From assembly GCA_015709595.1 (NCBI GenBank), contig CP054178.1, positions 1,364,001-1,428,000 on the forward strand: a DNA stretch of 64,000 nucleotides, given 5' to 3'. Made by a program: the position numbers and the translations under genes. This DNA comes from Phycisphaeraceae bacterium (lineage in GTDB: Bacteria; Planctomycetota; Phycisphaerae; Phycisphaerales; SM1A02). Below the pieces are notes generated by a model. The model searched no databases. It saw only the letters and a program-made list of their open reading frames with translations, and had not been told where the DNA came from. This document shows, piece by piece, positions 42,441 through 60,024 of the stretch (positions within the stretch are counted from its first letter, which is position 1; each line of letters begins with the position of its first letter).

Positions 42441-42638
42441 TTCATCCGCGACCACATCGGCTTGCCGCACCCGCGCAATCCCGCGGCGCGTGAACCTCGC
42501 GCCTGAAGCCGGATCGTCGGTGATTCCAGAAAAAAACTTCGCTCGACGCTCGTCGAGGAATCGCGCGATTCCTCGTCTCTTGGCCGCTCCCGGATGCTGC
42601 GCTTCACCCCTGGGGTGTCGCCGCATTCGGAGCACGTC

Positions 42639-44225
42639 ATGTCCACCCTCGCCCCCTTCGCCGGCATTCCGCTCAATGAAGCGCTGCTTCGCCACCTGAT
42701 CGACCACCACGAGCGCGTCCGCCTGCCGCGCTTCGAGCGGCTCTGGCGCTACTTCCGCAACGAACTCGCGCCGCCCGCGACGGACGGGCAGGACCGCACC
42801 CCGCCCGCGCAGCGCGTGGGGCTCCCCAGGCGACTGCAGTCAACGCGTCGCCCGGGCGCGGATGATCGCACGCAGCGCGAGGTGGTCATCGAGAACGACA
42901 TTGGCTGGCGCATTCATGCGCTCGTGGACTTCATGTTCCCCGCCGCCCCACGGCTCGTGAGCACCGCGCCCGACCCGGCCCGCCGGCGCGAGATCGAAGC
43001 GATGCTCGAGCGCCTCATCGACGCCAACGGCGGGGTGATGCTCTGGCAGGACGCCGCCCTGCTCGGCAGCGTGTACGGACACGTCGATCTGCTCATCGAT
43101 GCCGACGCACTCTTCGCCATCCGTCCCGAGCGTGCGGGCGAGGCGCGTTCATCACGCGGCGTTGACACGAACCCAAGCACGCGCCCCACCGCCAGCCCCA
43201 CCACAAGTCCCCCACGGGATCGACCGGGAGACGCCGCGCCAGGGCTTTCCGCCCGCAGCCGGGCGCTGTCGCCCGAGACCCTGCTCCACATCGAGGCGGT
43301 CGAGGCGCCCCGGTCGATCCCGCTTCTTTCGCCCCACGACTACCGGGCGCTCGACGCCTTCATCATCCACTTCGAACAACCGAAGCACGCGGTGACGCAG
43401 GGCTCGTTCCTCGCGCGGCTGCTGGCCAGCCGATTCGTCTCGCGCGATGTGCTTCGTTCGCAGCGCGCCACCACCACCGTCACCGAGATCCGATCATCCA
43501 CGCACCGTCAGCGCTACGAGGACGGCCGCCTCGTCGAGGAAACCCGCAATCCGCTGGGCCGCCTGCCCGTCGTGCACATTCAGAATCTCAGCCAGCCGTT
43601 GGCGTGGGAAGGGCTGTCGGACGTGGAGCCGCTCATCCCACTGCAGGACGAACTCAACACCCGTCTCTCCGACCGGGCCAACCGCGTCACCATGCAGTCC
43701 TTCCGCATGTGGCTGGGCAAGGGCATCGAGGGCTTCATCGACCGGCCCGTCGGCCCCGGGCAGATGTGGATGACCGACAACGAGAACGCCTCGATCGAGT
43801 CCTTCGGCGGCGACGCCGACAGCCCCAGCGAACGCCAGCACATCGAGGATCTGCGCGAGGCGCTCGACAAGGCCTCGGGCGTCACGCCCGCGGCGGCGGG
43901 GCACATCAAGGCCAAGGTCGGCAACCTCACCTCGGAAAACGCCCTGCGCATCTCGCTCATGGGCACCATCGCCAAGGTGAAGCGCAAGCGCATCACCTAC
44001 GGACGCGGCATCGCCCAGACCTGCGAACTGGCGCTCGAGGCGCTCCATCGCTCCGGGCACTTCCGCACCGAAGCCAACGAGCGCGGCGTCGAGATCGCCT
44101 GGCCGGACCCCCTGCCCGCGGATGAGACGCGGCGATTGCAGGATGCGCTCCTCAAGGCCCAGCTCGGCGTGCCGCACGAGACGCTCCGCGCGGAACTTGG
44201 GTACGGAGAAAGGGGTGAGGCGTGA
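42639..44225 (+). CDS. Phage portal protein (SPP1 gp6-like)
   Basis: Portal protein, 528 residues, which would form the dodecameric DNA channel at one capsid vertex. Recognisable features are an N-terminal LRHLIDHHERVRLPRFERLWRYF helix, IGWRIHALVDFMFP, the crown/clip region with WQDAALLGSVYGHVDLLID, and the C-terminal helical stem VGNLTSENALRISLMGTIAKVKRKRITYGRGI. It is the first gene of the phage-like locus. The ATG at 42639 has GGAG upstream and gives MSTLAPFAGIPL; the longer ATG at 42594 lies in the repeat-rich leader. No terminase precedes it. Confidence 0.78.
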   Translation: MSTLAPFAGIPLNEALLRHLIDHHERVRLPRFERLWRYFRNELAPPATDGQDRTPPAQRVGLPRRLQSTRRPGADDRTQREVVIENDIGWRIHALVDFMFPAAPRLVSTAPDPARRREIEAMLERLIDANGGVMLWQDAALLGSVYGHVDLLIDADALFAIRPERAGEARSSRGVDTNPSTRPTASPTTSPPRDRPGDAAPGLSARSRALSPETLLHIEAVEAPRSIPLLSPHDYRALDAFIIHFEQPKHAVTQGSFLARLLASRFVSRDVLRSQRATTTVTEIRSSTHRQRYEDGRLVEETRNPLGRLPVVHIQNLSQPLAWEGLSDVEPLIPLQDELNTRLSDRANRVTMQSFRMWLGKGIEGFIDRPVGPGQMWMTDNENASIESFGGDADSPSERQHIEDLREALDKASGVTPAAAGHIKAKVGNLTSENALRISLMGTIAKVKRKRITYGRGIAQTCELALEALHRSGHFRTEANERGVEIAWPDPLPADETRRLQDALLKAQLGVPHETLRAELGYGERGEA

Positions 44226-44280
44226 GCCATCGGCCACCAGGGGGAGGACAGGAGAACAGGGCAGGTCAGGTTGTCGAGGC

Positions 44281-44367
44281 CCGCCGCGACGAATCCCGAC
44301 CAGGCGACCCGACGGTGAGATTGTCAACGCGTCACCCCACCCTGCTTCTGAATCCGGAACTCACTCA
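44281..44367. repeat. Repeated leader segment, copy 1
   Basis: An imperfect direct repeat of about 90-100 nt whose core is CGAATCCCGACCAGGCGACC (44290-44309) and whose end is GGAACTCACTCA. The second copy is at 44909-45004. Each copy lies 40-60 nt upstream of a phage-module gene (scaffold-like at 44405 and capsid at 45068), so it may be a shared promoter or 5' leader. Confidence 0.6.
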
Positions 44368-44404
44368 CCCCTCATCCCTCAGTCCTCTCCATCCCGGAGC
44401 CGCC

Positions 44405-44842
44405 ATGTCCACCGAACCGATCAGCACCAACCCCGACCCTGCCGCCCGCATCGCCGAACTGGAGCGTCAGCTCACCGAGGCGAATGAACGAGCCGCATCC
44501 ATCGAGCGGACCCACCGCATCAACGACCTGCTGCGCGAGGCGCGGGCCATCGACCTCGACACCGCGCGTCTGCTGGTGGAGCGCGCCATGACCAGCGATG
44601 CGACGCGCGACGCCAAGGCGATCGTCGCCGACCTGATGGCGGGCAAGCCGTTCCTCTTCGCGCCCGACGGGCCGACGGACGGCGCGTCATCGACGCGATC
44701 CGTGAAGCATCGCACGGGCGTGATGGCGCCGCGATCGACTGACCATCTGACCTCGCCGCTCGTCGAGGCGGCGGACGAAGCACGCATCACAGGCAAGCGC
44801 GGCGACGTGCTCCGCTACCTGCGCCTGCGCCGCGCCCGGTAG
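44405..44842 (+). CDS. Scaffold-like coiled-coil protein
   Basis: A 145-residue hydrophilic protein between portal and capsid genes. Residues about 15-45 (ARIAELERQLTEANERAASIERTHRINDLL) form a clear coiled coil; the rest is helical and charged with an RLRRAR tail. Size, position and composition are those of capsid scaffolding proteins in SPP1/P22-type and SU10-like heads. Basic C-termini often bind the coat protein. Ribosome binding site GGAG at 44395-44398. Confidence 0.65.
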   Translation: MSTEPISTNPDPAARIAELERQLTEANERAASIERTHRINDLLREARAIDLDTARLLVERAMTSDATRDAKAIVADLMAGKPFLFAPDGPTDGASSTRSVKHRTGVMAPRSTDHLTSPLVEAADEARITGKRGDVLRYLRLRRAR

Positions 44843-45067: not shown

Positions 45068-45237
45068 ATGTCCTTCACCGGAAAGGCCACCTACTCCGCC
45101 GGCGCCGCGCTTCCTGAAATCGCGGAAGACGTGAGCGACCTGATCGGCATCGTCAGCCCGCACGAGACGCCGCTGCTCGATCACCTGGGCGACCCGCAGC
45201 GCAGCGCCACCAGCACCGTGCACGAGTGGCTCGAGGA
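45068..45237 (+). pseudogene. Major capsid protein, 5' part (SU10/DUF5309-like), split by insertion
   Basis: First 57 codons of a capsid gene: MSFTGKATYSAGAALPEIAE, then [21 protein letters not shown] and STVHEWLED, which is the conserved N-arm and first part of the SU10-type coat proteins. The gene is interrupted at 45237/45238 by an 11.6-kb element; reading on gives about 20 unrelated residues and a stop at 45299-45301. The rest of the gene resumes at 56820 in the same frame. AAGGA lies 10 nt before the ATG. Confidence 0.85.
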
Positions 45238-46977
45238 CGCGCTCGTTTCCCGTCTGACAAACGCTGCTTGCAGGGCGCTGCACGCGTCGCGCGGCAGGTA
45301 GAGCGTACCCACCTTCCGGTCCGGGTCGATCTCGATCTTCGGCACGAACGCGTGAACGGCCGCCCTCGCCTCGATCATGGGCGTGCCGGGCTTGAGCGCC
45401 TGGCCAAGGTCGGCGATCCGCTCGCGGGCCCAGGCGCGGAGGCGATCCGGGTCGATCGATTTTGGGGCATCGGGCTTGGCGGCCACGTCCGCCTCAAGCG
45501 CCTCGCGTCGCCGCTTCAGATCAACGAGTGCCGCTCGGAGCTCGCCGACATCGGCAAGGTCGCTGTCCGAGAGCAGGGCGACCGTCGTCTTGATCCGCTT
45601 GTTCAGGTCGGCCAGTTCCCGGCTGCGATCCGGTTGGGCCTTGGCCGCGGCAGCGCGGCCGCAAACGGCCTTCACGAACTGCTCGATGGCCTGGCCGACT
45701 CCGGCCTTGTCGGCCAGCACGGCCGCGCGCAGTTGAGCCAGCACCCATTGGTCGAGCGCGGCCGCCTGGATGTGCGTCGCCTTGCAGACGCCGATTCCCT
45801 GGGCCCGGTACCCGCCGTCGGCGTAGTACCGGATCTCGCCCGCGCTGTTCTTCAGCACGCAGCCCCAGAAGTTGTGGCCGCAGTGCTCGCAGCGGAGGAG
45901 ACCGGACAGCAGGTACCGCTGCGTCGGGCGGGCCAGGCCGCCGGCGTTGCGTCGCTTAGCCATCTGCTCGTGCGCCTTCCAGAACAGGTCCGGCGGCACG
46001 ATGGCCTCATGGACGTTCTCGACGACGATCCAGCGATCCTTCGGGTTGCGCGTCGTCTTGGCGACCTTCTTCGGGATGGCCGAGCCGTCGGACGCCACCT
46101 CGTGGATCTTGCCGAACGTGCGCCTGTTCCAGGCCAGCGCGCCGCGGTAGCAAGGGTTCTGCAGGATCGACTTCACCGCCATCTGGTTCCATCGGGCATG
46201 CATCGGCCCCTGGATGCCCTTGGCGTTGAGGGCGATGAGGATCGAGCGGAAGCCCAGCCCCTTGACGCACATCTCGAAGATGTCGCGCACGACCGCGATG
46301 TGCTTCGGGTCGCCGGGGACCAGCCGCACGATGTCAGACTTCATCTTCTTCGGGAGTTTCTCCTTCGGGTCAATGAAGCGCAGGTGCCGACCGTCGGGCC
46401 CGAACTCCTGGCGTCGGCCGTCGGGGAGCGTCCGAACGGTCTTGAGCACCTGCCCGTTGGCCGACACGTACTGGCGGTCGTAGCCGTAGGGGGACCGCCC
46501 GCCCATGGCGCTGTTCCGCACCGTCACCGTCGAGTGCTGGCCACGGATACTGTCGCGCGATAGTTTCACCGAGTACTGCCGGGCCTGCCACGACTTCACG
46601 CCTTGCAGCAGTTCGCCCTCATCGCCGTCCGGGATTCCCTCGGCGATGAAGTGCGTCTCGACGCCCGCGAGGCGAAGCCGGTGCAGGTAGTAGCCCGTCT
46701 CGTTCGTGCCGCCGCGCGAGAACCGGGACATGTCGTAGCACAGCACCGCGTCGAAGTCGCGCCCGTTCTCCGCCTCATGGATGAGGCGGGTGAACTGGTC
46801 GCGACCCCGAGCGCTGGTGCCGCTGATCGCATCGTCCACGAACCACCGCAGGATGCGGTACCCGTGATCCCGCGCCCAGCGCTCGACCGCCGCCTTCTGG
46901 TCGGGAATCGACCGCTCCTGCAGGTCGGTCGAGCGCCGGGCATAGCCCACCGCGAAACGGATGTCGCTGGCGATCAT
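45181..46977 (-). CDS. Large serine recombinase (element integrase)
   Basis: Site-specific recombinase that would insert and excise the element, 598 residues in the integrated state. The N-terminal resolvase domain has the nucleophile Ser16 in [17 protein letters not shown], plus [20 protein letters not shown] and [19 protein letters not shown]. Next come the recombinase domain ([26 protein letters not shown]) and a zinc ribbon with Cys pairs CEHC and C in [10 protein letters not shown], then a coiled coil of about 70 residues. The gene starts with ATGA overlap after the HARE-HTH gene. Its last 18 codons lie outside the element, read from the antisense strand of the capsid gene; see the attachment site finding. 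Confidence 0.93.
45230..45262. other. Left attachment junction (attL) of the element
   Basis: Junction of capsid gene and element. GGA at 45235-45237 is shared with the right junction (56819-56821), and CGCT lies 3-6 nt further on in both. On the element side, CCCGTCTG at 45249-45256 is one arm of an inverted repeat whose partner CAGACGGG is at the right end, so the joined circle would carry a palindromic attP centred on the GGA. Confidence 0.72.
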
Positions 46978-47327
46978 GCCGCCTCCGTGGTCTCGAACAG
47001 GCCGCGCTCAACCTTGCGGAACCGGGCCGCCTTCCCCTTGGCGGCGATCTCGCGGATGATCGCGGCGTAGAGCGTGGCCTCGGGCGTCTTGCCGTTCGGG
47101 CTGGACCACAGGCCCTTGGCGCTCGCCGCCTCGATCATCTCCTTGGCCCGCATCGGCTTGCCAGCGTCTGCCAGCACCTTCGCGGCGGCGCTGAGGGCGC
47201 TGAGGCGCTTCGCCGGCGCGGGCACCTTCGTCGCCTTGGCCTCCGCCAAGGCGCGCTTGGTGCGGGCTGCGCCCTCGGCGCGGGCCGCGCTCTTCGACAT
47301 CTTCCGGCTGGGGTTATTCTTGGCCAT
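46974..47327 (-). CDS. HARE-HTH domain protein
   Basis: A 117-residue basic protein. The N-terminal 45 residues are Lys/Ala/Arg-rich, and the rest fits the HARE-HTH (HB1, ASXL) domain: [71 protein letters not shown]. Such domains occur in restriction enzymes and chromatin-like proteins and are thought to bind DNA. Its stop overlaps the recombinase start (ATGA), so it is probably co-expressed and may aid integration or control. Confidence 0.82.
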
Positions 47328-47537
47328 GTTCGGGTCTCCATCGCGGGGCGGCGGAATTGCCGACCGGCGCGGACACAGGAGGGCGTCATGGGTGCCGGAG
47401 TTCAAGTCGAATCCGGGACATTCCGCCAAAGGGGCGATGTGGGAGCATCCGCGCCCGGACAGGCGAAACAAAGTCTGTCTATTCCCGCGGCTGTTCCCGC
47501 GGGCGTTGGGTGGCGATGCGGGCCAGGGAGGACCCGC

Positions 47538-47647
47538 CCGGGGGGGAGGGGGGTCGCGCGTCCCCCCCAGACCCCCCGGGGCGCGTACGCCCCCCGGGGG
47601 GGGGGCATACGCGCGCACACGTTTGCGCGCAACCCCCCCTCCCCCCT
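47538..47647. other. Homopolymer G/C tract with hairpins inside the element
   Basis: In the 320-nt gap 47328-47647 there are several runs of seven or more G or C, two of them facing each other as a hairpin (CGCGTACGCCCCCC with GGGGGGCATACGCG near 47582-47616) and a second palindrome TGCGCGCA...TGCGCGCA nearby. It lies just downstream of the ATPase stop and upstream of HARE-HTH. It could be a strong terminator, a G-quadruplex or a replication signal; no clear choice can be made. Confidence 0.6.
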
Positions 47648-49273
47648 TCACTGGCCACTCTCCGGTTGACGCGCCACGACGAAACGGACGCGGTCTGACG
47701 GGCCGGCTTGGGAGCGGCGCACGAGGCCGCGGGCCTCGGCGAGTTTGAGGAGACGGGTCGCCTGGGCATGGGAGAGGTCCTTCGTGGCGGCGTGCAGGAT
47801 CTCGTCGCGGAGCGCCGGCGCGCCGGTGACGAACGCGCCGACGAATCGCTCGGGTGTCCAGTCGTCGGGTGCGGGAGGCGGGTTGCTTCGCTGCCGCCGT
47901 CGCGGCGACTCGATCTTGAGGCGCCTGGGGTCGAGGTCTTCGGCCACGTCCCACACGGGGAACGCCCAGCGCAGGCATGTGCCATCGAGCGGCGGCCACG
48001 ACCGCACCGCGGCTTCGAGCACTACCACATCGTTTTCTTCGTGCGGACGCAGGACCAGGTGCGCGTCCGTCGCCCGGCTCTGGCTGCCGGCGCCGGCCCC
48101 GACATCGGTGACCGCCTTGCCCGATTGGTTCCCCTTCGTGGCGTGGTGGATGAGCACGAACGAGCAGCGCAGGTCCGCGGCGTATCGGTCGATGTGGTTG
48201 TAGAGCATCGCCATGTCCGCGTTGGCGTTCTCGTCCATCCCCGATGGCAGGAAGCGGTAGAACGCGTCGAGCACGATCAGGCGGAAGCGCCCGGGCTCGA
48301 TATCGCGGAAGAACGCGCCGAGGGTGACGATGTCCTGCAGGCCGCCGCGCAGGTTGCGAACGAACAAGCGGTCGGCGAAATCGTCGATGGCCACGCCGCG
48401 CGCCTTGGCGACCTTCGGGATGCGGTTGGCCGAGGTCTCGCCGTGCAACTCGTTGTCGATGATCAGCACGTCGCCGGCGGTCGTGGCGAAGCGGCCGAGC
48501 CAGGGCCGGCCGGTGGCGACCGCGATGGCTAGGTCGAGCACGAGCCACGACTTGCCCGTCTTCGGCGAGGCGATCACGTTCATGGTCTCGCCCTCGCGGA
48601 GCAGGCGTTCGATCACCGCCGGGCGCAGCGACGGGCAGGCCGCGAGCAGGTCCCGCGCGCTGATGAACGGTGGAGGTGCAGGCGTGGTTTCGGGCATGGG
48701 CGGGGCAGCCTCCTTCGCTGCGGCCTCGCGCGCCGCTTCGGTCTGATCCAGCAGGGGCGGCGCGATGTTGGACGGGTCACCCGTCGTCGCCCAGGCCTCC
48801 ACCTCCGCCAACCAGGCTGGGATCAGCACTTCGACGATTTGCTCGTCGGCCAGGCCTCGACCAGACAAGCGCAGCCACGCATCGAACGTCATGGCAACGG
48901 CTTGGTGGCGACCGCGGGCCCGTGCGGCGACGACGGCGTGCCCGAGCCTATAGACAACCTGCTCGCCGATGTATCGTGCACGCTGCCCCTTGTCGGTGAT
49001 GCCGAAGTAGTCAGCCGACGGAACGAGAACACGGGCACCCTCGTAGGCCTCGCGCCTGACCGCCCATGCCGCTTCCACGACATCGCAGGCGGGCTCGCCC
49101 CATGCAGCCACCTCGCGGGCAGCATCGATGAACGCGGCGCGGAACGCCCGCTCGACCTCGATTGGATCGCTGCCGTCGTATCGCTTCGAGCTGGGGCCAT
49201 CGTCATACCAGCGGGCGTACCGCTGGCCCGCAGCGACGACGATGCCGAACTCTGTGCCGTGCTGCGCTGTCAC
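47648..49273 (-). CDS. RepA-like AAA ATPase (RecA fold)
   Basis: A 541-residue ATPase, likely the replication or DNA-handling protein of the element. The central RecA-like core has Walker [24 protein letters not shown], Walker B-like [12 protein letters not shown], and [38 protein letters not shown], as in AAA_25/RepA helicase-like proteins. The N-terminal 180 residues are not assigned; the C-terminal 100 hold a helical region with a possible winged helix ([34 protein letters not shown]). The GTG at 49273 is chosen because it overlaps the upstream stop as GTGA. Confidence 0.85.
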
Positions 49274-49458
49274 TCCGGCTCGCTTTCCTGTTGCTCGCGC
49301 TCCCACTCGGCCAGCAACCACGCACCGATGTGGTCGATCACCTCGTTCCAACGCGCGGCGGCATCGGGAACCTTGATGAACTCAATCCCGAATGCGATGT
49401 CCCCGATCTGGATCTGGGACGGCGGGATGTCCCGCTGCTCGACCATGAGCGCACCCAT
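49270..49458 (-). CDS. Small hypothetical element protein
   Basis: A 62-residue product (MGALMVEQRD... to [10 protein letters not shown]) in which IPPSQIQIGDIAFGIEFIKV and AAARWNEVIDHIGAWLLAEWE are the likely structured parts. It has no named family. It stands directly after the capsid fusion and overlaps the ATPase start. An ATG at 49446 is an alternative. The position suggests a small cofactor of the capsid or ATPase genes, but that is only context. Confidence 0.55.
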   Translation of the reverse strand: MGALMVEQRDIPPSQIQIGDIAFGIEFIKVPDAAARWNEVIDHIGAWLLAEWEREQQESEPE

Positions 49459-49559
49459 CGCGCCGCCGCGATCGGCGCGGCGTGCGTCATTCGTGATCCG
49501 TGTGAGAGAAAGGCCGGGGGCAGCCCGCAACCGCCCCCGGCCGCACCAGCGCCGACCGT

Positions 49560-51458
49560 TTACGCCTCGCCCTTGCTCCGCACCGCCGCCCGCGGGTCGC
49601 ACAGGGCCGCGCCGAAGTCGAAGTAGACGCGCCACGACACCGCCAACTTGTTCACCGTCTGGTCGAGCCCGAAGAACTCGACGGTCGGCGTCTGCTGGCC
49701 GTTGAGGAACCCGACGATGATCGGGCTCGCCGCCGGGGCCGCGAACAGGTACCAGTGCTTCGTCGAGGCCTTGGCGCCGTACTTCTTCGTGTTGCTCAGG
49801 CGCGGCTCGACCTCGAGGCCGACGGCGTTCTTGAGGCTGTTGCCGGTGGGCAGATTCGTCTGGGCGGCGATGAACTCGCTCTCCAGAACCGCCCGCGCGG
49901 TCGTCTGCAACTCCGGCGGCACCACCAGCACGACGGGCCGGAGGTCCAGGTCGTTGCCCTCCGCGTCGCGCTGGGTGATCATCGCGGCGATGGCCCGCCC
50001 CAGCGAGTCGGGGCTGAGAATCGTGTCCGCCCCGGTGATGTAGTTGCCGTTGCCCGCGGCGAAGAAAGCACCCGCGTTGGACAGCAGCGTGTCGTAGGTG
50101 AGGTCGGACAACTTCCGCATCGCGGCCTGGCCCATCACCCGCGCGACCGAGTCGAACAGGCTCAGGTCATCGTTGATGAGGTCGCGCCGGTCGATCGAGA
50201 AGATCTTGCCGTAGGTGTCCACCTTGTACTGCGTCGTCGCTTCCTCGGCCCCGCCGTGCTTGAACTCGCCGCCGGGCGGCAGTTGCTGGAGCGAGCCCGT
50301 GAACGACGGACGGATCGCGGTTGCCGTCTTGAAGTCCGGCACGCTCCGCACGCCCGCGAAGGATCGCCAGGTCGCGGGGCTATCGCGGTAGCCGTCGAGC
50401 AGGACCTTGTTCACCGCGCTGCCGAGGGCCTCGGTAAGCGTGTGCGTCGTCAGCGACGCGCGCACCATGCCCTCGCGGTCGGCGGGAGCGTCGATTCCCT
50501 CGTGTTGCAAGGCCGCGCGGCAGAGGTCCAGCGTGTGAGCGACTCGCAAATCGTCGGCCGCCTCCATGCACGCCGGGCCAAGGGCCTTCTCGGCGAGCCC
50601 GGCGAAGCCCGCACGCTTGAGGATCGCCGCCTCAATCACTCGGGCACGCGGGATGTGGCCCGAGCCGCCCCCGGTGATGAAGCCAGAGATCACGGGGCGC
50701 GAGGCCCGCAGCACCTCGAGCACGCCTGCGCGCAGTTCGCTGACGGTCATGTCGCCCGCGACGGCCTTCGCCTTCATGTCATCCACCCGCTTCTGGTGCA
50801 CGCCCCAGTCCCGCTCGCCCCCACCTGCGAAGATGGGGCGGCAGGTCAGTTCGATCTCCTTGAGCCGGTCGCGCTCATCGGCGCGGATCTGGTCCTCGTG
50901 TGCGATGTCTGCCATGTTCGTCCGTCCTTGACGCGAAGCCGCGATGGCCACCGACGTTTCTGCGTCGGCCCCCAGCGGCGTGATGCTGACTTCCCGCAGC
51001 CGCCCCTTGCGCACAAGCGTGAACCCGCCCGGCGACGACAGCGACCGCTCGTTGACCTCGACCGACTGATTGGGCTTCACCCGCTCGTGCTCGGTGGGCG
51101 CGACGCCGACCGATGCCTGGAACTGGAATCCGCCCCGGGCCATCTCGACGACGTGCCGCGCCGATTCGCCAGCGCCGCTGACGACACCCGCGACCATCAG
51201 CCGCCCGTTGGCGACGGCGGGTTCGCCGTGGCCGACGACGCTGCCGACCGTGGCGTCGTGGTCGGCCAGCAGCGGCACCTGGCCGCCCGCTTCAAGGCCC
51301 GCCAGGTCGATCGCGATGTCGCCCCAGCCCGGCACACGCATGATGCGGCCGGTGTACGCGACGACGCTGATCTTGGGGCGGGCATCCTTGCCCGCGGCCT
51401 CGATCTCGACCCCGGCGGCCGTGAGCAGCAGGTCATCCTTGACCGTGTTTGCGTTCAT
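49560..51458 (-). CDS. Prohead protease/major capsid protein fusion
   Basis: A 632-residue capsid-type fusion. Residues about 25-175 are a U35-like prohead protease with the likely catalytic His67 (VPLLADHDATVG) and Ser116 (FQFQASVGVAP). A charged helical linker or scaffold (ADIAHEDQIRADERDRLKEIE) follows, then a coat-protein domain from about residue 300 to the end, with EEATTQYKVDTYGKIFSIDRRDLINDDLSLFD, NYITGADTILSPDSLGRAI and VVPPELQTTARAVLESEF, as in Mu gpT-like/HK97-fold coats. Its stop is followed by a 100-nt gap; its start overlaps the sigma-like gene by 26 nt. It shows that the element codes its own shell protein. Confidence 0.82.
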   Translation of the reverse strand: MNANTVKDDLLLTAAGVEIEAAGKDARPKISVVAYTGRIMRVPGWGDIAIDLAGLEAGGQVPLLADHDATVGSVVGHGEPAVANGRLMVAGVVSGAGESARHVVEMARGGFQFQASVGVAPTEHERVKPNQSVEVNERSLSSPGGFTLVRKGRLREVSITPLGADAETSVAIAASRQGRTNMADIAHEDQIRADERDRLKEIELTCRPIFAGGGERDWGVHQKRVDDMKAKAVAGDMTVSELRAGVLEVLRASRPVISGFITGGGSGHIPRARVIEAAILKRAGFAGLAEKALGPACMEAADDLRVAHTLDLCRAALQHEGIDAPADREGMVRASLTTHTLTEALGSAVNKVLLDGYRDSPATWRSFAGVRSVPDFKTATAIRPSFTGSLQQLPPGGEFKHGGAEEATTQYKVDTYGKIFSIDRRDLINDDLSLFDSVARVMGQAAMRKLSDLTYDTLLSNAGAFFAAGNGNYITGADTILSPDSLGRAIAAMITQRDAEGNDLDLRPVVLVVPPELQTTARAVLESEFIAAQTNLPTGNSLKNAVGLEVEPRLSNTKKYGAKASTKHWYLFAAPAASPIIVGFLNGQQTPTVEFFGLDQTVNKLAVSWRVYFDFGAALCDPRAAVRSKGEA

Positions 51459-52041
51459 GAAACTCTCCTTCTGAGACCACCTTGAAGCCCTTCGCCAGCA
51501 ACTTCGGGATCAGCAACTTCAACCGGTACCGGATCGTGCTCTCTTTCATCTTGAGCCGCCTCGCGGCCTCGCTCACGTTCCCCTCGCACTCCATGATCGT
51601 GCGGCACAGCGTTCGACTGTTCTCGTCGTCGATGTACTCGAGCACGTCGTCCGTTGCCCAGGACGACTGGGACAAGCCGACCGTGCGGTTGCTGGCGATC
51701 TCGCGTCCTACCGGGTCGTCGTATACCCCGTCGCTCGCGTTGTGCCCTGTATCTGCGGCAACGCGCAGCGTCTTGAACTTCCTGAGGGCACGCTCCTCGC
51801 GCTCCGCATGCTTCAGCACCGCCGTCTGTACGACGAGGTAGATCAACGTCTTGGGGCTCGCGCCACGGGCGGGGTCCCATACGGGCGGCTTGGCGATCAG
51901 GTGCAGCAGGGCTTCCTGGACGACATCGTCGTGACAGACGCCCGGCTTGCAGTGGTCCTTGGCCGCCTCGAATCCAACTCGCCGCGCGTAGTCGAGCAGG
52001 TCGGGCGTGAGTTCGAGTTCGGTGGGTGAGGGGTCCGGCAT
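51433..52041 (-). CDS. Sigma-factor-like regulator
   Basis: A 202-residue protein with a sigma-70-like region 2 (CHDDVVQEALLHLIAKPPVWDPARGASPKTLIYLVVQTAVLKHAER) and a C-terminal helix-turn-helix (GNVSEAARRLKMKESTIRYRLKLLIPKL) that resembles FIS/Sigma-54-activator or terminase-small-subunit HTH more than region 4. It starts directly after the stop of the 172-aa gene and overlaps the capsid fusion gene. It could activate late genes of the element. The assignment rests on pattern only. Confidence 0.68.
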   Translation of the reverse strand: MPDPSPTELELTPDLLDYARRVGFEAAKDHCKPGVCHDDVVQEALLHLIAKPPVWDPARGASPKTLIYLVVQTAVLKHAEREERALRKFKTLRVAADTGHNASDGVYDDPVGREIASNRTVGLSQSSWATDDVLEYIDDENSRTLCRTIMECEGNVSEAARRLKMKESTIRYRLKLLIPKLLAKGFKVVSEGEFHERKHGQG

Positions 52042-52560
52042 TCAGACCTCCTCGCCACGCTCGAGCCTCTCACGGATGTCGTCGCACAGCGTGAAGGAGA
52101 TCACCGCCGGGGTGCTCTCGCGGGGCGGCACGCGGTGCATGACGAAGAGCTGGTCGTCGGGTCGCACGGGCCGCCCGTACTTGGCCGACTCACGCTCGGC
52201 GGCCTCGCGGAGGGATCGCAGGAAGTCGGCGTACCGGCACCCGAGGGCCAAGCACATCGCCGCGTAGGGCGTGAGAATGCCCGCCTCTTCAAGGTGATCG
52301 GCCGCGGCGTCCACGTCGGCCTGCATCCATGCTTCGGGCTGCGACGGCGTGACCACCCCCTGCCGGACGAGCGCTTCGAGGATCGCGGGGCGGCAGTCGT
52401 AGCCCCGGGACCGCAGGTGGTGCGATGCCGTGGCCGTCGCCATCGGGAACATCCGGTCCCGCTCCTGCTCGGCCGCCTCACAGAACGCGGGATCCGCGCC
52501 CGCAAGGGGCTTCATGCGGAGGTCGAAATGCTCGTCGAAGGTCAGTCCGATTCGGGTCAC
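52042..52560 (-). CDS. Hypothetical element protein
   Basis: Not recognised; 172 residues. The sequence is acidic and helical (AAEQERDRMFPMATATASHHLRSRGYDCRPAILEALVRQG; WMQADVDAAADHLEEAGILTPYAAMCLALGCRYADFLRSLREAA), and the last part (TPAVISFTLCDDIRERLERGEEV) may be a separate small fold. It is the first gene of the minus-strand operon, with no gap to the sigma-like gene. The 206-nt region upstream to 52766 is the likely divergent promoter region; no clear motif was seen there. Confidence 0.62.
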   Translation of the reverse strand: MTRIGLTFDEHFDLRMKPLAGADPAFCEAAEQERDRMFPMATATASHHLRSRGYDCRPAILEALVRQGVVTPSQPEAWMQADVDAAADHLEEAGILTPYAAMCLALGCRYADFLRSLREAAERESAKYGRPVRPDDQLFVMHRVPPRESTPAVISFTLCDDIRERLERGEEV

Positions 52561-52820
52561 GGTGGTCTCCTTGCCGGGGGGCGTCGGGCGACATGCCCAC
52601 CCCCCAAACCCTTATTTCCGGCGCGGGGGTCGATTCGTAGGGCCCACTGGAGCATTTTCCTCGGCAAGCGGGCTTCGGCACGCTCGCGGCCCGCCAACCT
52701 CGGGACCCGGGGGCACGTCTGGACCGTATCGAGCACCCCGCTCATCGTTCGAGATGAACCCGAAGTATGATCCTCATCGAACGTGCGGTCGCTCCGTGCG
52801 CCCGTGCACTGGAGATGGCC

Positions 52821-54227
52821 ATGCCGAGACAGCAAGGCGGGGGCAAGCTCCCCGGGAAGACGGAGTGGTCCGGCCGACGCAGGCCAACGACCCGTCGTTC
52901 AGGGTTCAAGGCTCACGAAGACGCTACAGGCGGTGAGTTCAGGAAGCTGGCCATCCCCACCGTGGCGATCGATGCAGGGACGCCCCTGGTGGTCTCATTC
53001 GCTCTGCCCCGGTACTCGGAGGATTCTCTGCTGGCTTTTGGAGGCTGGTTTGCGTGCGACGTACCTGTAGATGTGACCATTGAGGGTGGTCCCACCGCTC
53101 GGACCCTGACGACGTACCCGCCGCCGAGTTGGAACAAAGTAGGTAGCATGTGGAACGCCGGCGACGAATCTCACGATGAGGTCCGCGTGGTCTTCACCGC
53201 GAAGCGATCGGGTCGACTGGCAGTACACGGTCTCGCGTGTGGCATCGTCAACCACCTGCACCTCGATGACGCCCGTCCGGTTCTACTCCGGAACATGTAC
53301 CAATTCTCCCCGGAGGCGCACTTCATCACGACGGCGGGGAAGGTCATACTCAAGGCGGGAGGTGCCGCACCCATTGCCGACGACAAGCGCTGCGCGGAAC
53401 TATTCGTCAAGTCCTGCAACAGATGTGCTCGGTTCCTGCCGGTGAACATCCCCCACGAGCGCAACCACCTGAGTTTCAGCAACCACTGTGTGGCAGACCA
53501 TCGGCGCCCATGCAAGCACAATGGCTTCGGGCGACTTCGCAACCCGGACACCGATGAATCCTTGAGCCTGGACTACGGCTTTCAGCTGGAGTGCCGGTTC
53601 TGCAAGAAGTTCGAGGTGAACGCCGCCCACAACCCGAAGCGTACGGCAGCCCAGATGAAGGAAGACGCGGCGCGGCGCCGAGGGTTCGAGCTTTTGATTG
53701 AGGCTCTGAGCGGAGGCACGCCCCAGCTGCAATACCGGCATGAAACCGGGCGCGAGCTGGCCGACGACGTGCTGGCCCGATCGAACGGATGCTGCTTCAA
53801 CTGCGGAAAGCCATTTCCCAAGGGCCGCGGCTGGCATCTGGATCACACTCGACCGCTTGCGCTGCTCTGGCCATTGGATGGGACGGCCACCGCCTTGTGC
53901 GGAGGCTGCAACTCAGAGAAACGTGATCGGGCCCCTGTCGAGTTCTATGCGCCCGAGAAGCTCCAGGAGTTGGCAGAGTTGACGGGCATTTCGATGGATG
54001 AGCTGCGTGATCCGAAGCCGAACATGGCGGTAGTCGGTGTACTGTTGAAGCGGCTCGATTGGTTCTTCGATGAGTTCCTCGCGACCCCCGATATGACACG
54101 CGAGCACGATGGGAAGATCGCCGGCGAGTTGGTAGTGAAGGCGCTCCAGAAGGTGCTCGAGCGCTGCCCCGGGGGCGCGCCGATCGACCTCGTCGCGGAG
54201 TTCAACAGCAGACGGAGCGCTGGTTGA
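52821..54227 (+). CDS. HNH endonuclease with Zn-ribbon N-terminal region
   Basis: A 468-residue probable nuclease. The C-terminal third has an HNH site: two Cys pairs (CFNC and CGGC) around HLDHTRPLALLWPLDGTATALC, with the catalytic His-Asp-His set. Upstream, residues about 205-285 hold further Cys/His pairs (CNRC, HC...H, CKH, CRFC). The N-terminal 180 residues are beta-rich. It ends 5 nt before the convergent methyltransferase gene, so the two form a probable restriction-modification pair. GGAG lies 7 nt before the ATG at 52821; the frame is open from 52767. Confidence 0.8.
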   Translation: MPRQQGGGKLPGKTEWSGRRRPTTRRSGFKAHEDATGGEFRKLAIPTVAIDAGTPLVVSFALPRYSEDSLLAFGGWFACDVPVDVTIEGGPTARTLTTYPPPSWNKVGSMWNAGDESHDEVRVVFTAKRSGRLAVHGLACGIVNHLHLDDARPVLLRNMYQFSPEAHFITTAGKVILKAGGAAPIADDKRCAELFVKSCNRCARFLPVNIPHERNHLSFSNHCVADHRRPCKHNGFGRLRNPDTDESLSLDYGFQLECRFCKKFEVNAAHNPKRTAAQMKEDAARRRGFELLIEALSGGTPQLQYRHETGRELADDVLARSNGCCFNCGKPFPKGRGWHLDHTRPLALLWPLDGTATALCGGCNSEKRDRAPVEFYAPEKLQELAELTGISMDELRDPKPNMAVVGVLLKRLDWFFDEFLATPDMTREHDGKIAGELVVKALQKVLERCPGGAPIDLVAEFNSRRSAG

Positions 54228-54231
54228 ACGG

Positions 54232-56658
54232 CTACCGCTTTGTCAGAACGAGATACTGGTGCGCCGTCACTGTGCCCTTGTCGCTTAGCCCGTGCTTCTC
54301 GCAGTGCGTCACGTCCTCCGTGAATATCTCGTCCACGGCCAGGTATTCTGACGCCAGCGATGAGAGCTTCTTCGCCATGTCGCATTTTCTGCTTTGACCA
54401 AGGTGAAGCACTGCGACGCCATCTGGGGCGAGATGCTCTCGGAAGCGCTCAAACACGACGCGGTAAATGCCGAGCGATTGCCGCTGCAGCGACTCGATGA
54501 ACTGTGCCGGCTGGGTGTCAAAATCGCCGCGGTCCCATCCGCAGAACCAGTATCGCATCCAATTGGTCATGTAGAAGCGGGTCGAATCAAAGAACGGCGG
54601 CGAAGTGATGATCGCGTCAACGCGCTCGCATTCCCGTGGCCACGGACCGCAGATGTCCGCGACGAAGCAGCGGCCCGGAACGAACTCGGGTGACAAGGGT
54701 GTTTCAAGGCCGCGAACGATCTTATCGCGCAGCTTGTCCATGACGCGGCGGTACTCCGTAGGCCCGGTTGGGGCGAACGGAGTTACGGGATGACTGCGCC
54801 TGCTCAGCGCGTAGGGACGGTTGCCGTGCAGCACGTGGAGCATGCAGGCAAGTGCGAAGGACCACTCTGGGGAATCGTCACGACGCTGCTTGAAGAACCT
54901 GCGGGCCAAGAGGATTTCATTGAGCGTCCGCTCGTGAAAATACTCGGGGATGGAGCGATTAAACCGGATGGCCGCGGCGCCAGCATGGTCTTCCGTGGTC
55001 GGCTTGTCGCGCGCGATGGATGTTTCCAGGTCTCTCAACAACGATTCCAGGCGATCTCTGTTGGGCGGACAGATCTTCGCATTCGTGACTGCAGCCGCCA
55101 TGATGCTGATGTCGAACCCCGCCGGTTTCCGGCCCTGTAGCGCCGCTTCGAAAGGAATGGTGCCCGCCCCTGAGAACGGATCGAGGACGAGGTCACCGGG
55201 TTCGCTGAAGCAGTGAACAAGAAAGTGCGCCAGCGACGGCTTCATCTTGCCGTTGTAGGAGCAGACCGAATGCAGGGGGTGGCCCCAGTTCCGCTTCGTA
55301 TACGGTGGCTGCTGATGCGGAACGGTGTCGCGGAACCAGTGCCATCGCTGGCGGCGGTCTCCGCGCTGAACCGTTGTGCCCACGGTGCGGTCGCGTCCGC
55401 GCCGAAGCACGAGCACATCCTGCGACAACCGGCTGCGATCCTTCGAAACGCGCGCGCGAAGTGGTACACGCTCAATGCACTCAAATCCAACGTCCGCAGC
55501 GACATCCACCAGAAGGTCCTGCGTGGGTACATTGATGCCGGCGTAACGGCTGTCCCCGATGTCGACGCACAAGACGGCACCTGGGATCGTCTGGGCCCAC
55601 AGCCCGCGGAACACTCGATGCATGTCATGGAAGTAGCCCGAGACCATGCGGTGAATGCGCTGGTCATAGGCAGCCCGCTCGATCTTCCTGACGATGGCCT
55701 CGACTGAAGGAGTAACACCGCAGCCAGGCGTCGCCGTTGTCACGTCGTTGATGCCAGAGGTCACGACGTCATCACGGAGTGTGCGCAGGTCGGCACCCCG
55801 CGTGATTGCCCGCAGGAACCACAGCTCAAGCTTCGTGTTTCGGATGTAATTCGTCCCATTGAGGTACGGGGGGCTGGTAATCACTCCCTCCGCGCCGAAC
55901 GGCGGAGCCCCTTCTAGGTTCTTGGCATCAGCGGCCAGCAGCGCCGCGGGCGCCCTGCCGGGCGGTGCGGACGGGAGATGGCGGGCCATCCGGAGCAACT
56001 GCGCAGCGACGGTCTCAATGAGCGGAGGAACACCCTTTGCGAGCTCAGACTCGGTCTTGTACCGCACGTCACCAGCACGCTTCAGCCTGGAGCAAGCCAC
56101 GATATTCGCAATGGTTGCCAGGGAAAGGAGATCGCCGACCATCGAGTCATCGGCGCCGACCGCGTCGCACAACGTCCGCAGGCGAAGAAGGTCGTCGAGC
56201 ACATGTGGCTCGAAGAACTCGCTTTTCCCGAAGCAGGCGACGTAGTCGTCACGCAGCAGTTGGTCACACGATTGTCGTCCGACTAGCCGATCGAGTTCGG
56301 AGGCGAGTTCATTCAGCCGCCTTGAGACCTTTGCTCTGGCGGATGCTGCTAGCCCAACAGCGTCGATCTTTGTCCGAATCACGAACCGCATCGCCGGGTT
56401 CACTTCGCAGTAGCCGCAGGTGACGCCGAGCTCAGCGAGGGCCAGCGGGGTCGTGCCTGTGCCGGCGAAGGGGTCGATGATCCTTGATGCTCTCGGCATG
56501 AACCGCCGGCGGAGCGTTTCGACAAAGGCGGGCGCGTACCCCTCCAAGTAGGCGTACCACGAATAGACCGGCTCGTTCTTGGCCGGGACGAACGTGCCGT
56601 CAGAACCGTTGATTGGTTGGGCTTCGAACAGCGTCGATTCAGCGAGGACGGGCGGCAT
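54232..56658 (-). CDS. Double-domain DNA methyltransferase
   Basis: An 808-residue SAM-dependent DNA methyltransferase with two sets of amino-methyltransferase motifs. Motif I: DPFAGTGTTPLALAELG near residue 62 and DPFSGAGTIPFEAALQG near 480. Motif IV: TSPPYLNGTNY near 255 and TSPPFFDSTRFY near 690. SPPY/SPPF motifs point to N4-cytosine or N6-adenine methylation of DNA. Two active units in one chain could methylate the two strands of an asymmetric site, or may be one permuted enzyme; that is inference. Partner nuclease lies convergent at 54227. Codon and base use look less GC-rich than neighbours. Confidence 0.85.
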   Translation of the reverse strand: MPPVLAESTLFEAQPINGSDGTFVPAKNEPVYSWYAYLEGYAPAFVETLRRRFMPRASRIIDPFAGTGTTPLALAELGVTCGYCEVNPAMRFVIRTKIDAVGLAASARAKVSRRLNELASELDRLVGRQSCDQLLRDDYVACFGKSEFFEPHVLDDLLRLRTLCDAVGADDSMVGDLLSLATIANIVACSRLKRAGDVRYKTESELAKGVPPLIETVAAQLLRMARHLPSAPPGRAPAALLAADAKNLEGAPPFGAEGVITSPPYLNGTNYIRNTKLELWFLRAITRGADLRTLRDDVVTSGINDVTTATPGCGVTPSVEAIVRKIERAAYDQRIHRMVSGYFHDMHRVFRGLWAQTIPGAVLCVDIGDSRYAGINVPTQDLLVDVAADVGFECIERVPLRARVSKDRSRLSQDVLVLRRGRDRTVGTTVQRGDRRQRWHWFRDTVPHQQPPYTKRNWGHPLHSVCSYNGKMKPSLAHFLVHCFSEPGDLVLDPFSGAGTIPFEAALQGRKPAGFDISIMAAAVTNAKICPPNRDRLESLLRDLETSIARDKPTTEDHAGAAAIRFNRSIPEYFHERTLNEILLARRFFKQRRDDSPEWSFALACMLHVLHGNRPYALSRRSHPVTPFAPTGPTEYRRVMDKLRDKIVRGLETPLSPEFVPGRCFVADICGPWPRECERVDAIITSPPFFDSTRFYMTNWMRYWFCGWDRGDFDTQPAQFIESLQRQSLGIYRVVFERFREHLAPDGVAVLHLGQSRKCDMAKKLSSLASEYLAVDEIFTEDVTHCEKHGLSDKGTVTAHQYLVLTKR

Positions 56659-56794
56659 GCGGCACGGGTCTCCGGTTCGAGGACGCCCGGACTATACCCG
56701 AACAGGGCGGGATGCGCGGCTATTTGACGGGCGGCGGTTGGGTGCGGGCGGTCTAGGCGGACTGTACGCCGTCGCTTCCCCATGTGAACGCGTG

Positions 56795-56827
56795 GGGCTT
56801 CAGACGGGTAAGCAGTGTGGATTCGCT
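56795..56827. other. Right attachment junction (attR) of the element
   Basis: CAGACGGG at 56802-56809 is the left arm of the proposed attP palindrome, GGA at 56819-56821 is the shared core, and CGCT follows at 56824-56827. The stop TAG used by the recombinase in the circular form would be at 56753-56755 (minus strand). Confidence 0.7.
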
Positions 56828-57824
56828 GCTGCCCAACGCCGACGCCGTCGATGACCAGACCATCGCCAACCCCGCCACGGAGACCACCTTCACCGTCGAG
56901 AACGGCTCGCGCTTCCGCGTCGGCGACCAGATCATGCTCACCGGCAAGCCGGAGGTGATGCTGGTCACCAGCGTCAGCGGCAACAACCTCACGGTGACGC
57001 GTCAGTACGGCGGCACGCCCTCGTCATCGCTGGTGGACAACGACCCCATCACCATCATCGCCAATGCCGCGCTCGAGGGCGCCCAGGCCGGTGCGGCCCG
57101 CTTCACCAACCGCTCTCGGCGTCAGAACTACACGCAGATCTTCGCCGCCACGGTGGAGGTGTCGGGCAGCCAGCTCGCCGCCCGCGCGCTGTCGATCGAC
57201 GACGAGATGGACTTCCAGAAGCAGGAGCGTCTGCGCGAACTGCTGCGCGACCTGGAGAACGCGGTGATCAACGGCGTGGCGCCGACCTCAACCCCCGAGG
57301 GCAGCACCACCGTCCGTCGCACCATGCGAGGCATCCGGCGGGCCATCACCACCAATGTCTTCCAGCCGGGCGTGGGCGGCATGCCCGCCGGCGGGGGGCC
57401 GGGCAGCAATGTGCTCAACGAGGCCCTGCTCAACGCCGCCCTTCGCGCCGTGTGGCAGCAGAGCTCGGGCAGCGTGGACACCATCGTGTGCGGCGGGGTG
57501 CAGAAGCGCCGCCTCAACGAGTTCGTCGCCGCCAACCAGCGGTTCGTCGATCACAACGATCGCTTCCGATCGCTGGTGGACGTGTACGAAAGCGACTACG
57601 GCGTGTGCCGGGTCATCCTCAGCCGCTGGGTGCCCGCGGACACGATCCTGCTGCTCGACTCGTCGCGTGTCGACGTGCTGCCGCTCGCCGGTCGGTCGTT
57701 CCACTTCAAGCCGCTGGCTCGCGTGGGCGACAGCGAGTCGGGCCAGTTGATCGGCGAGTACACGCTGGAGTTCCGCAACGAGAACGCCCACGCCGCCCTC
57801 ACCGGGCTGAGCCCGACGATCTGA
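56820..57824 (+). pseudogene. Major capsid protein, 3' part (SU10/DUF5309-like)
   Basis: Resumes the split capsid gene with codon 57 (gat) and continues DSLLPNADAVDDQTIANPATE. It then runs through ENGSRFRVGDQIMLTG, RTMRGIRRAITTNVFQ and RVILSRWVPADTILLLDSSRVDVLPLAG to the normal end. Joined to the 5' part it makes a 390-residue coat protein. An ATG at 56784 lies inside the element, so a truncated protein without the N-arm could be made while the element is present; whether it is expressed is unknown. Confidence 0.85.
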
Positions 57825-57864
57825 CCCGACCACCTGAACGCCTTCGGACCTCTCCTCCCTCGCG

Positions 57865-57894
57865 CCGGTCGGACCCGGACACGGGTCCGGCCGG
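57865..57894 (+). terminator. Hairpin terminator after the capsid gene
   Basis: A 13-bp stem (57865-57877 with 57882-57894, one G-T pair) around a 4-nt loop gaca, 41 nt after the capsid stop, then TTTG. The weak T-run makes it a likely but not classical Rho-independent terminator. Confidence 0.65.
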
Positions 57895-57905
57895 TTTGTG
57901 GAATC

Positions 57906-58145
57906 CCGTGTGCCACGGCTCTGCGAGCCGTGCAAACGTCAGCCGATGGACGCTGGTCCGACGGCCTCACGACGGCCTCGAAGTCCGTACTCGGCTCATT
58001 GTCGTTCTTCGAGCGTCCAGGGCGCGCCCGCACGGCCGACACGGCCGTGGCACACCATCGTCCACGACACGGACGTGGCGCACCGTCGTCCGCGACACGG
58101 CCGTGGCGCACCGTCGTCCGCGATGCGAAGCATCGCGCCACCCTT
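57906..58145. repeat. Hairpins and 28-bp tandem repeats before the adaptor-like gene
   Basis: The 340-nt gap 57825-58164 has the terminator, a type A hairpin (CACGGCTC-tgc-GAGCCGTG near 57912), and a tandem array with exact 28-bp period starting at 58037, 58065, 58093 and 58121, built on CGACACGGCCGTGGCGCACC. The last unit changes into a type B-like hairpin (CGATGC-gaa-GCATCG). An AAGGAG ribosome binding site for the next gene is at 58153-58158. Confidence 0.75.
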
Positions 58146-58164
58146 GTCGAACAAGGAGCCGATC

Positions 58165-58803: not shown

Positions 58804-58886
58804 TCAGGAGTCCGGAGTGCGTTCGGGCTTCCGAATCCACGAGGCCCATTCGCGGGACATGCGGGCGGTCATGTCACGGGTGAACC

Positions 58887-59984: not shown

Positions 59985-60024
59985 CCCGAACTCGGACCCC
60001 GGACTCCGAACCCCGGACTCACGC

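Follow-up and report, generated by a model that had tools for sequence, protein, structure and literature searches.

A predicted prohead protease-coat fusion gene in a putative family of phage satellites of Planctomycetota

How can an integrated element that encodes a coat protein of its own, and no recognisable terminase, portal or tail, be packaged and transferred? The question is raised by a locus of a Phycisphaeraceae bacterium (GCA_015709595.1, contig CP054178.1, positions 1,364,001-1,428,000; these 64,000 nt are called the window, and coordinates below are positions in it), where an element at 45236..56821 interrupts a phage-type coat gene and carries a predicted prohead protease-coat fusion gene (49560..51458, minus strand). 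An earlier interpretation, the sequence-only reading, held that such an element could make its own shells and borrow portal, packaging and tail functions from a helper. Our analysis supports the core of this proposal: the element is small and integrative, with integrase and replication genes and without a full virion gene set, as phage satellites are defined, and we consider it probable, at roughly 0.6, that it is a phage satellite that would combine the terminase, portal and tail of a helper with a shell of its own coat. The disrupted phage-derived cluster in which it sits is, however, probably not that helper. Throughout, L numbers denote the loci compared and G numbers the family genomes (101 in all).

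The open reading frame (ORF) at 49560-51458(-) is open over 632 aa and is a genuine gene. Its predicted product is an HK97-type prohead protease joined to a Mu-gpT-like coat. Residues 33-180 match PHROG 3244 'head maturation protease' (8.1e-15), the Pfam family Phage_capsid_4 covers residues 335-627 (3e-40), the Mu-like gpT family matches within the C-terminal half (2.2e-10), and residues 49-630, near the full length, match PHROG 4523 'major head and protease protein' (4.8e-75). When the structural model was compared with predicted viral proteins using Foldseek, 65 matches at E<=0.001 were obtained, headed by an HK97-family prohead protease (E 1.5e-11), with proteases and coats intermixed among the matches listed. 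Against the PDB, no Foldseek match reached E<=0.001 (Mu coat 9jod at the top, E 0.12; T4 gp21 protease, E 0.32), and a profile search of the same database returned three Mu-gpT-like coat sequences. The best named phages, among the matches listed, align chiefly over the C-terminal coat region, about residues 190-631, with identities below 30%. The two protease residues singled out by the sequence-only reading, H67 and S116, are invariant across 16 aligned fusions from the window, satellites and phages, so that a single-gene protease and coat is upheld by Pfam, PHROG 4523, Foldseek and residue conservation alike. Protease-coat fusions of this architecture are already known in phages (PHROGs 4523 and 133), and in this respect the earlier account needs correction: the fusion is not new by itself.

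The element lies between two GA crossover cores (45236-45237 and 56820-56821), which yield a predicted circle of 11,584 bp. The crossover was placed at this dinucleotide because the sequence spanning the insertion site is HEWLED(S/A)LLPN in three uninterrupted relatives of the coat. When the flanks are joined again at GA, a coat ORF of 390 aa is recovered that has no internal stop, the predicted attachment (att) site of the circle, attP, has near-symmetric arms flanking GA, and matching junctions occur in the 7 other complete loci of the same type (type A, below). The operon runs from a conserved satellite protein, here u172, through a sigma-like regulator to the fusion, followed by an ATPase, a HARE-HTH protein (HTH, helix-turn-helix) and a serine recombinase; an HNH-like and a methyltransferase gene lie to the right. 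Pfam and PHROGs searches of nine element ORFs revealed no terminase, portal or tail family at E<=0.1. Nor did any element ORF match a scaffold or size-determination protein of the type found in P4 or in Staphylococcus aureus pathogenicity islands (SaPIs); u172 and a small ORF matched no family.

The sequence-only reading suggested looking for the same cassette in other planctomycetes, and it is indeed present in many loci. A single genome scan, with peptides of the window's fusion protein as queries and hence favouring close relatives, detected the fusion in 32 planctomycete loci from 22 metagenome-assembled genomes, mostly labelled Phycisphaerales or Phycisphaerae; 31 of these loci show 83-95% identity over the best segment, and L034 shows 61%. 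The 16 complete members comprise 8 of type A, 6 of type B, and L050 and L119, the ends of which are approximate and the sizes of which were estimated from split genes. Types A and B share the u172-sigma-fusion core and carry two unrelated integration and replication tails. Type A, integrated in an SU10-type coat gene, has the ATPase-HARE-serine recombinase tail, and type B has an AlpA-like protein, a DUF3987 primase-helicase and a tyrosine integrase, and is found at ssrA, the transfer-messenger RNA (tmRNA) gene, where the att repeats measure 26-29 bp in five loci and L033 has an exact repeat of 16 bp; a tmRNA gene was called at the repeat in 5 of the 6 (the exception is L014). Sizes average 11,055 bp in type A (n=8), 11,397 bp in type B (n=6) and 11,151 bp over all 16 members (standard deviation 393, range 10,377-11,847), a uniformity only suggestive as proof of a capsid limit. 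The cargo slot, from the far att site to u172, spans about 2.7-4.7 kb, and the backbone is nearly constant. The genome of a P4-type satellite is about one-third of that of a typical helper (judging by the sizes of P4 and P2), as in the element. No homologue of helper TerS, TerL, connector, portal, tail tube or tape measure was found in the 16 complete members (tblastn, E<=1e-3), which, with the Pfam and PHROGs searches, bears out the claim that the element lacks recognisable terminase, portal and tail genes. Types A and B also occur together in individual genomes (L013/L014, L009/L037, L008/L029, L011/L015); in H1_PLA1, the fusion genes of the two types are ~43 kb apart.

The fusions of these elements form a lineage of their own. 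In a quick tree of 125 rows of at least 440 aa, which L036, L037, L038 and L120 did not enter, the satellite-side fusions are recovered as one clade of 36 rows, including two identical pairs (SH-aLRT 100, stem 1.34), within which types A and B are interspersed; the tree program warns of long branches, e.g. L119, the gene surroundings are known for part of the rows, and G014C3 has only a weak u172 match beside its fusion. Moreover, the fusion gene is under purifying selection. A length rule, which asked for a single match of at least 85% coverage and for no N, was passed by 27 of 33 fusions; these contain no internal stop and have a median ratio of nonsynonymous to synonymous substitution rates (dN/dS) of 0.146. 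The rule by itself drops broken copies, namely L037 with frame breaks, L028 with 296 N inside, and partial loci. The corresponding medians are 0.092 for the recombinase (10 sequences), 0.194 for HARE, 0.295 for the ATPase, 0.296 for u172 and 0.339 for the sigma-like regulator. Internal stops in 8 of 14 ATPase rows and in 1 of 10 recombinase rows (L007) were considered as signs of decay and set aside, because the ATPase start is probably annotated too early and the stop in the recombinase probably reflects its host-derived tail.

Which phage, then, might serve as the helper? The obvious candidate is the cluster that the element interrupts. PF17236, which we take to be the former DUF5309, matches both the 5' part of the coat gene on the attL side (45068..45235, plus strand; 1.8e-9) and the 3' part on the attR side (56822..57824, plus; 7.9e-75); thus, the host gene is indeed a disrupted coat gene with a restorable ORF, and its coat family differs from that of the fusion, as the sequence-only reading maintained. 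Outside the element, the cluster includes an SPP1-type portal (42594..44225, plus; PF05133 1e-19) and a scaffold-like gene (44222..44842, plus; PF06810 0.002, below the Pfam cut-off, and syntenic in intact relatives). Terminase and tail families gave no good-scoring match among the window ORFs tested around the cluster, the single PHROG tail-fibre match (E 0.008) falling on the coat half itself; the own genome contains no TerL beyond three prophage copies (below); and a whole-genome search at <=3 mismatches placed no copy of the ~50-bp signal described below in the cluster. The SU10-type cluster was therefore rejected as helper, for lack of a terminase or tail match, for a coat of another family and for lack of the shared signal. 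With its portal, scaffold, coat and small genes, it looks domesticated and is possibly a domesticated or gene-transfer-agent-like head cluster; the 3' coat part is matched at E<=0.001 in 16 of the 101 family genomes, the own genome included. The cluster spans 42594-44842, 45068-45235 and 56822-60913 of the window, with relatives in L111, L113 and L114-L118, and in relatives from five genera it adjoins a common neighbour, judged by eye to be an M16-type peptidase gene, which in the window lies on the opposite side. A distant TerL (about 28-34%) is present in seven family genomes, all among the 16 with the SU10 coat; in G070 and G091, it forms a small locus apart, together with genes for a ParB-methyltransferase and a DNA-binding protein, and in G030, it is accompanied by a ParB-methyltransferase homologue (L204:5921-9757; L208, L209).

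Three largely syntenic prophages in the same genome (approximately 232-263, 296-324 and 3,075-3,106 kb), together with their relatives, are likelier helpers. Each contains TerL, portal, fusion and tape measure genes, assigned by PHROG in one prophage and by homology in the other two; the Pfam terminase models PF05876 and PF03237 detect nothing in this genome, though the prophage TerL is clear by PHROG, and a search for att sites and exact ends of the prophages found none. Their fusions are 36-38% identical to that of the element. The sequence-only reading had counted terminase or tail genes in a larger prophage elsewhere in the genome against itself, if they belonged to the element; such genes literally exist, yet in separate phages with a fusion of their own, as a helper should have. 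Helper TerL occurs at >=66% identity in 19 of the 22 satellite-bearing genomes, and 20 have some match. Among the family genomes, 9 of 101 have helper TerL at >=60%, one as a 94-residue piece, and these 9 make up 3 of the 5 genomes that hold a satellite-side fusion and 6 of the remaining 96, a comparison uncorrected for relatedness. Physical association is seen for two divergent members in IMG/VR contigs of helper-like phages: the L050 satellite (fusion 61%) lies inside the major tail gene and the L119 satellite (fusion 52%) inside the TerL gene. Between the L050 satellite and its host phage, the DNA clearly in common consists of the HARE gene and its neighbour, at 73-76% DNA identity, and the fusion, and includes no non-coding site. 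Among the best viral-contig relatives, a portal gene lies on the same stretch in 76 of the 80 loci scanned, L034 among them.

The element and its candidate helpers are further connected by a non-coding signal of ~50 bp, GGACAGGCGAAACAAAGTCTGTCTATTCCCGCGGCTGTTCCCGCGGGCGT (47457..47507, plus strand), with the core GCGGCTGTTCCCGCGG and an upstream AAACAAA box. At <=3 mismatches, the 3.84-Mb genome contains exactly 4 sites, one in the element and one in each of the three prophages (control 0). All 14 complete type A and B members hold a single copy with 0-2 of 26 fixed positions mismatched, the next best site having at least 8, and its orientation relative to the fusion is constant; a single orientation relative to the head genes is kept throughout these members, the three resident prophages and 15 helper-like loci. 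In 15 of 19 testable helper-like loci, a copy (<=7/26 mismatches) lies <=700 bp upstream of a strong ParB-methyltransferase match, against 0 of 19 on the opposite strand (where the fewest mismatches were 9; shuffles reached minima of 7-10); another ten loci did not extend far enough for this test, and several of the phages are near-identical. Three of the 4 loci missing the upstream copy have one elsewhere in the record. The signal was also present in 12 of 31 IMG/VR records tested, which were chosen from 80 relatives (control 0), and, at <=2 mismatches, in 6 of the 101 family genomes (ten sites), 5 of which also hold a fusion. We favour the view that this is a shared packaging (cos-like) site, a putative function.

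The remaining genes of the element are as follows. The large serine recombinase (45181..46977, minus; 598 aa; PF07508 3.3e-24, PF00239 6.8e-23) takes its ~18 C-terminal codons (45181-45237), when integrated, from the host coat gene read antisense; in the computed circle, the tail comes from element DNA, the protein has 602 rather than 598 aa and the tails differ, a possible direction switch. The HARE-HTH protein (46974..47327, minus; 117 aa if the start is ATG; PF05066 4.5e-10) shows 71% to two resident prophages, with a DNA match in the third. The AAA_25/RepA-primase-like replication ATPase (47648..49351, minus; PF13481 2e-32; PHROG 2597 DNA primase 7.2e-35), the annotated TTG start of which is probably too far upstream, has a homologue at 56-59% in helper-like prophages of G014 and G030. 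The small ORF of ~61 aa (49270..49455, minus) has 70-97% matches in most type A-like loci, 42% in L026 and no PHROG match; in type B, only its upstream stretch matches. The sigma-region-2/Fis-type HTH regulator (51433..52041, minus; 202 aa; PF04542 1.2e-6, PF02954 5.6e-6) is detected in 15 of the 16 complete members. Protein u172 (52042..52560, minus; 172 aa) shows 75-92% in 19 other loci, with a mean column identity of 84% (20 sequences), and 24% in L119; it has no Pfam or PHROG match, its model (pLDDT 77) has no PDB match at E<=0.001, and we regard it as a candidate size, packaging or induction factor. Thus, the ATPase, sigma-like regulator, recombinase and HARE-HTH protein listed by the sequence-only reading are all present, and the list is to be extended by two cargo genes: an HNH/endonuclease-VII-like gene (52767..54227, plus; 486 aa; PHROG 1035 1.6e-7; no PADLOC match) and a DNA methyltransferase of 808 aa (54232..56658, minus; PF01555 2.5e-17; PADLOC MTase_II 1.7e-65), of which the former is possibly the partner.

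From the element limits, the family, the coat lineage, the purifying selection, the shared signal and the helper co-occurrence, all read from sequence, we infer excision, cos function, formation and size of a shell, and use of the helper portal and tail, as follows. The serine recombinase would integrate the element into the coat gene of a phage-derived host cluster. With an active helper of the resident-prophage type, equipped with TerL, portal, fusion and a long tail with tape measure, the element would excise, restoring the host coat ORF, and replicate with its own AAA ATPase, and the u172/sigma-like/fusion operon would be switched on. The fusion would then assemble and mature, on the helper portal, a shell sized for the ~11-kb genome; the helper terminase would cut and package the element at the shared cos-like site, and the helper tail would complete the particle. 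The cargo slot would carry interchangeable, mostly restriction-modification genes. Genome size is only suggestive of the small shells.

Several observations weigh against this scenario. The structure prediction proposed as a check gave a weak AlphaFold model of the fusion (mean pLDDT 58.7, pTM 0.29; about 80 in the protease part). The L037 fusion has frame breaks, and in G018C1 the match to the fusion breaks off at residue 504 and is followed immediately by the recombinase. No close helper TerL is found in 3 of the 22 satellite-bearing genomes. A carried capsid gene is dispensable in the phage-inducible chromosomal islands (PICIs) of Gram-negative bacteria, GN-PICIs, according to PMC10111431. 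As for the signal, none was detected at <=3 mismatches in the records of L050 and L049; the best match in the L050 satellite (9/26 mismatches) is noise, and that in the L119 satellite has 5/26. Its likeness to lambda cos falls short of significance, 394 of 2000 shuffles doing equally well, and it adjoins the replication ATPase in type A and two prophages, so that a role in origin or control function is possible. Finally, 3 of the 10 family-genome sites (G010:C179, G018:C18, G014:C8) lie in stretches without any satellite or helper gene and are unexplained. Two of them adjoin defence-type genes (AbiEi/AbiEii in one case; an SNF2 helicase, an Eco57I-type methylase and HTH_17 in the other) and the third adjoins neither; such sites could mark other islands using the same site, or could argue against a phage-specific role. 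Stray signal copies are located in L106 near 10333, L107 near 18567, and L109 near 11052 and 10668.

Because of these three stray copies, our confidence in the satellite explanation was slightly lowered and that in its main competitor with respect to the signal raised, namely, that the ~50-bp signal serves as an origin of replication or a control site for late genes, with packaging dependent on another determinant (e.g., pac, headful). The signal indeed neighbours a related AAA ATPase gene in type A and the helper-like prophages G014C9 and G030C4, and it follows the primase gene in the resident prophages; some copies in other genomes, with no phage gene nearby, point in the same direction. In type B, however, the signal is kept away from the unrelated DUF3987 primase, 379-434 bp inside the far att site, and prophages whose primase differs retain it as well; its orientation with respect to the head genes, as noted above, is constant. 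Given this retention beside different replication modules and the near-att position in type B, we favour the packaging site and view the origin or control site as a tentative, if serious, possibility.

Even if the signal directs packaging, the element could be packaged in helper heads, its fusion interfering with or resizing helper assembly through co-assembly, as a dominant-negative coat or as a protease decoy. Many GN-PICIs carry a capsid gene on its own (21 of the 29 reference PICIs), and according to PMC10111431 it was not needed for their transfer; the element has no portal of its own; and at 36-38% identity between its fusion and that of the helper, mixed assembly is conceivable. Yet the fusion lineage has long been separated from the phage fusions, the full protease and coat are kept with H67 and S116 invariant, the dN/dS of the fusion is below those of the ATPase, HARE, u172 and sigma-like genes, and the ~11-kb size fits a small shell of its own. 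Interference with helper assembly thus appears unlikely, and a shell built from the element's own coat remains the preferred explanation.

The cargo invites another interpretation, under which the coat domain of what would be a mobile defence island serves as a non-viral compartment or in an anti-phage function, with no helper transfer. Indeed, a DNA-methyltransferase gene was found in 14 of the 16 complete members, by search or by similarity to a searched one, and the cargo differs between them, for example M.Eco57I-like in L007 and L011 and HsdM-HsdS in L008; the partial locus L015 carries a NaeI restriction enzyme. Among the genes searched, however, no methyltransferase was found in L033, which carries a PNKP-type ligase, or in L119, which carries transglutaminase-like and sigma-type genes; combined with the signal shared with phages, the helper co-occurrence, the embedding in helper-like phages and the retained prohead protease, this makes a pure defence island very improbable. 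A decaying prophage remnant with a coat gene kept by chance, to which the few phage structural genes, the frame breaks of L037 and the seemingly cut-short G018C1 fusion might point, was rejected as scarcely credible in view of the purifying selection on the fusion (dN/dS 0.146 and no internal stop in the 27 passing copies, if under a rule that drops broken ones), the recurrence of one core in many loci alongside two integration systems, the restorable target ORF and the single coat clade. In addition, a type B cargo gene distinct from the fusion (L029:5124-6212) matches head maturation proteases (PHROG 53, 2.2e-8) and has an 83% identical counterpart in L035 (5391-6449), and a reverse-transcriptase gene (L009:3244-4557; RVT_1 3.5e-12) lies directly beyond the att repeat that bounds an ssrA-integrated type B satellite.

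The results presented here add a widespread satellite family in Planctomycetota, with candidate helper phages named in the same genome and a short non-coding site the role of which is directly testable. They bear on whether a coat and a protease suffice, without portal and terminase, to fix the size of the particle and to privatise packaging, and they show that satellites converge on phage late genes as homes outside the PICIs of the E. coli type. In the literature searched, which did not cover subscription papers and preprints, we found no description of planctomycete phage satellites or of this combination of genes. As noted above, the fusion architecture is shared with the phages of PHROGs 4523 and 133 and with the three resident prophages, but there a portal is mostly nearby and the fusions belong to a separate clade.

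The closest known kinds of satellites are the helper-embedded PICIs (HE-PICIs) and the capsid-forming PICIs (cfPICIs), and we do not claim membership in either. According to PMC10111431, HE-PICIs, e.g. 11capE in prophage 50icd, are likewise ~11 kb, lie within a phage coat or late gene and carry a coat gene of their own, a precedent for a lone-coat satellite sitting in a phage coat gene; likewise, their integrases repeatedly target late genes, a region shared with the helper lies at the cos position, and genes are exchanged between prophage and satellite. HE-PICIs, as described there, have one integrase clade with AlpA and primase, whereas the window element has a serine recombinase and type A lacks AlpA, so that the diagnostic set (tyrosine integrase of that clade, AlpA and primase) is absent from it. 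Type B, with its AlpA-like protein, DUF3987 primase and tyrosine integrase, has an HE-PICI-like set but sits in ssrA. With respect to embedding in a helper, the target in the window is probably not one, and the relatives L050 and L119 fit if their host phages are helpers. Unlike HE-PICIs, the family has a protease-coat fusion, mostly restriction-modification cargo and a Planctomycetota host.

As for cfPICIs, PMC10690885 and PMC11389934 describe, likewise, an own major coat and head protease, separate coat clades and a need for helper tails. They also encode portal, connectors, TerS/TerL and HNH; of this repertoire, the element has the coat and the head maturation protease, no helper-type portal, connector or terminase was found in it, and its HNH-like gene looks like cargo rather than the cfPICI-type HNH. 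In P4 and SaPI satellites, according to PMC10690885, the helper terminase likewise acts on satellite cos sites, but these satellites remodel the helper coat with a scaffold, whereas the element carries its own coat and protease. With about even odds in our estimation, the family would represent a third satellite strategy, between P4/SaPI remodelling and cfPICI autonomy, in which an own shell is combined with the helper portal and with the helper terminase acting at a borrowed cos; this strategy would rely on an old coat-protease lineage, known to date from satellites only, exchanged between elements targeting ssrA and those targeting late genes, one branch of which found its home in the coat gene of a domesticated cluster.

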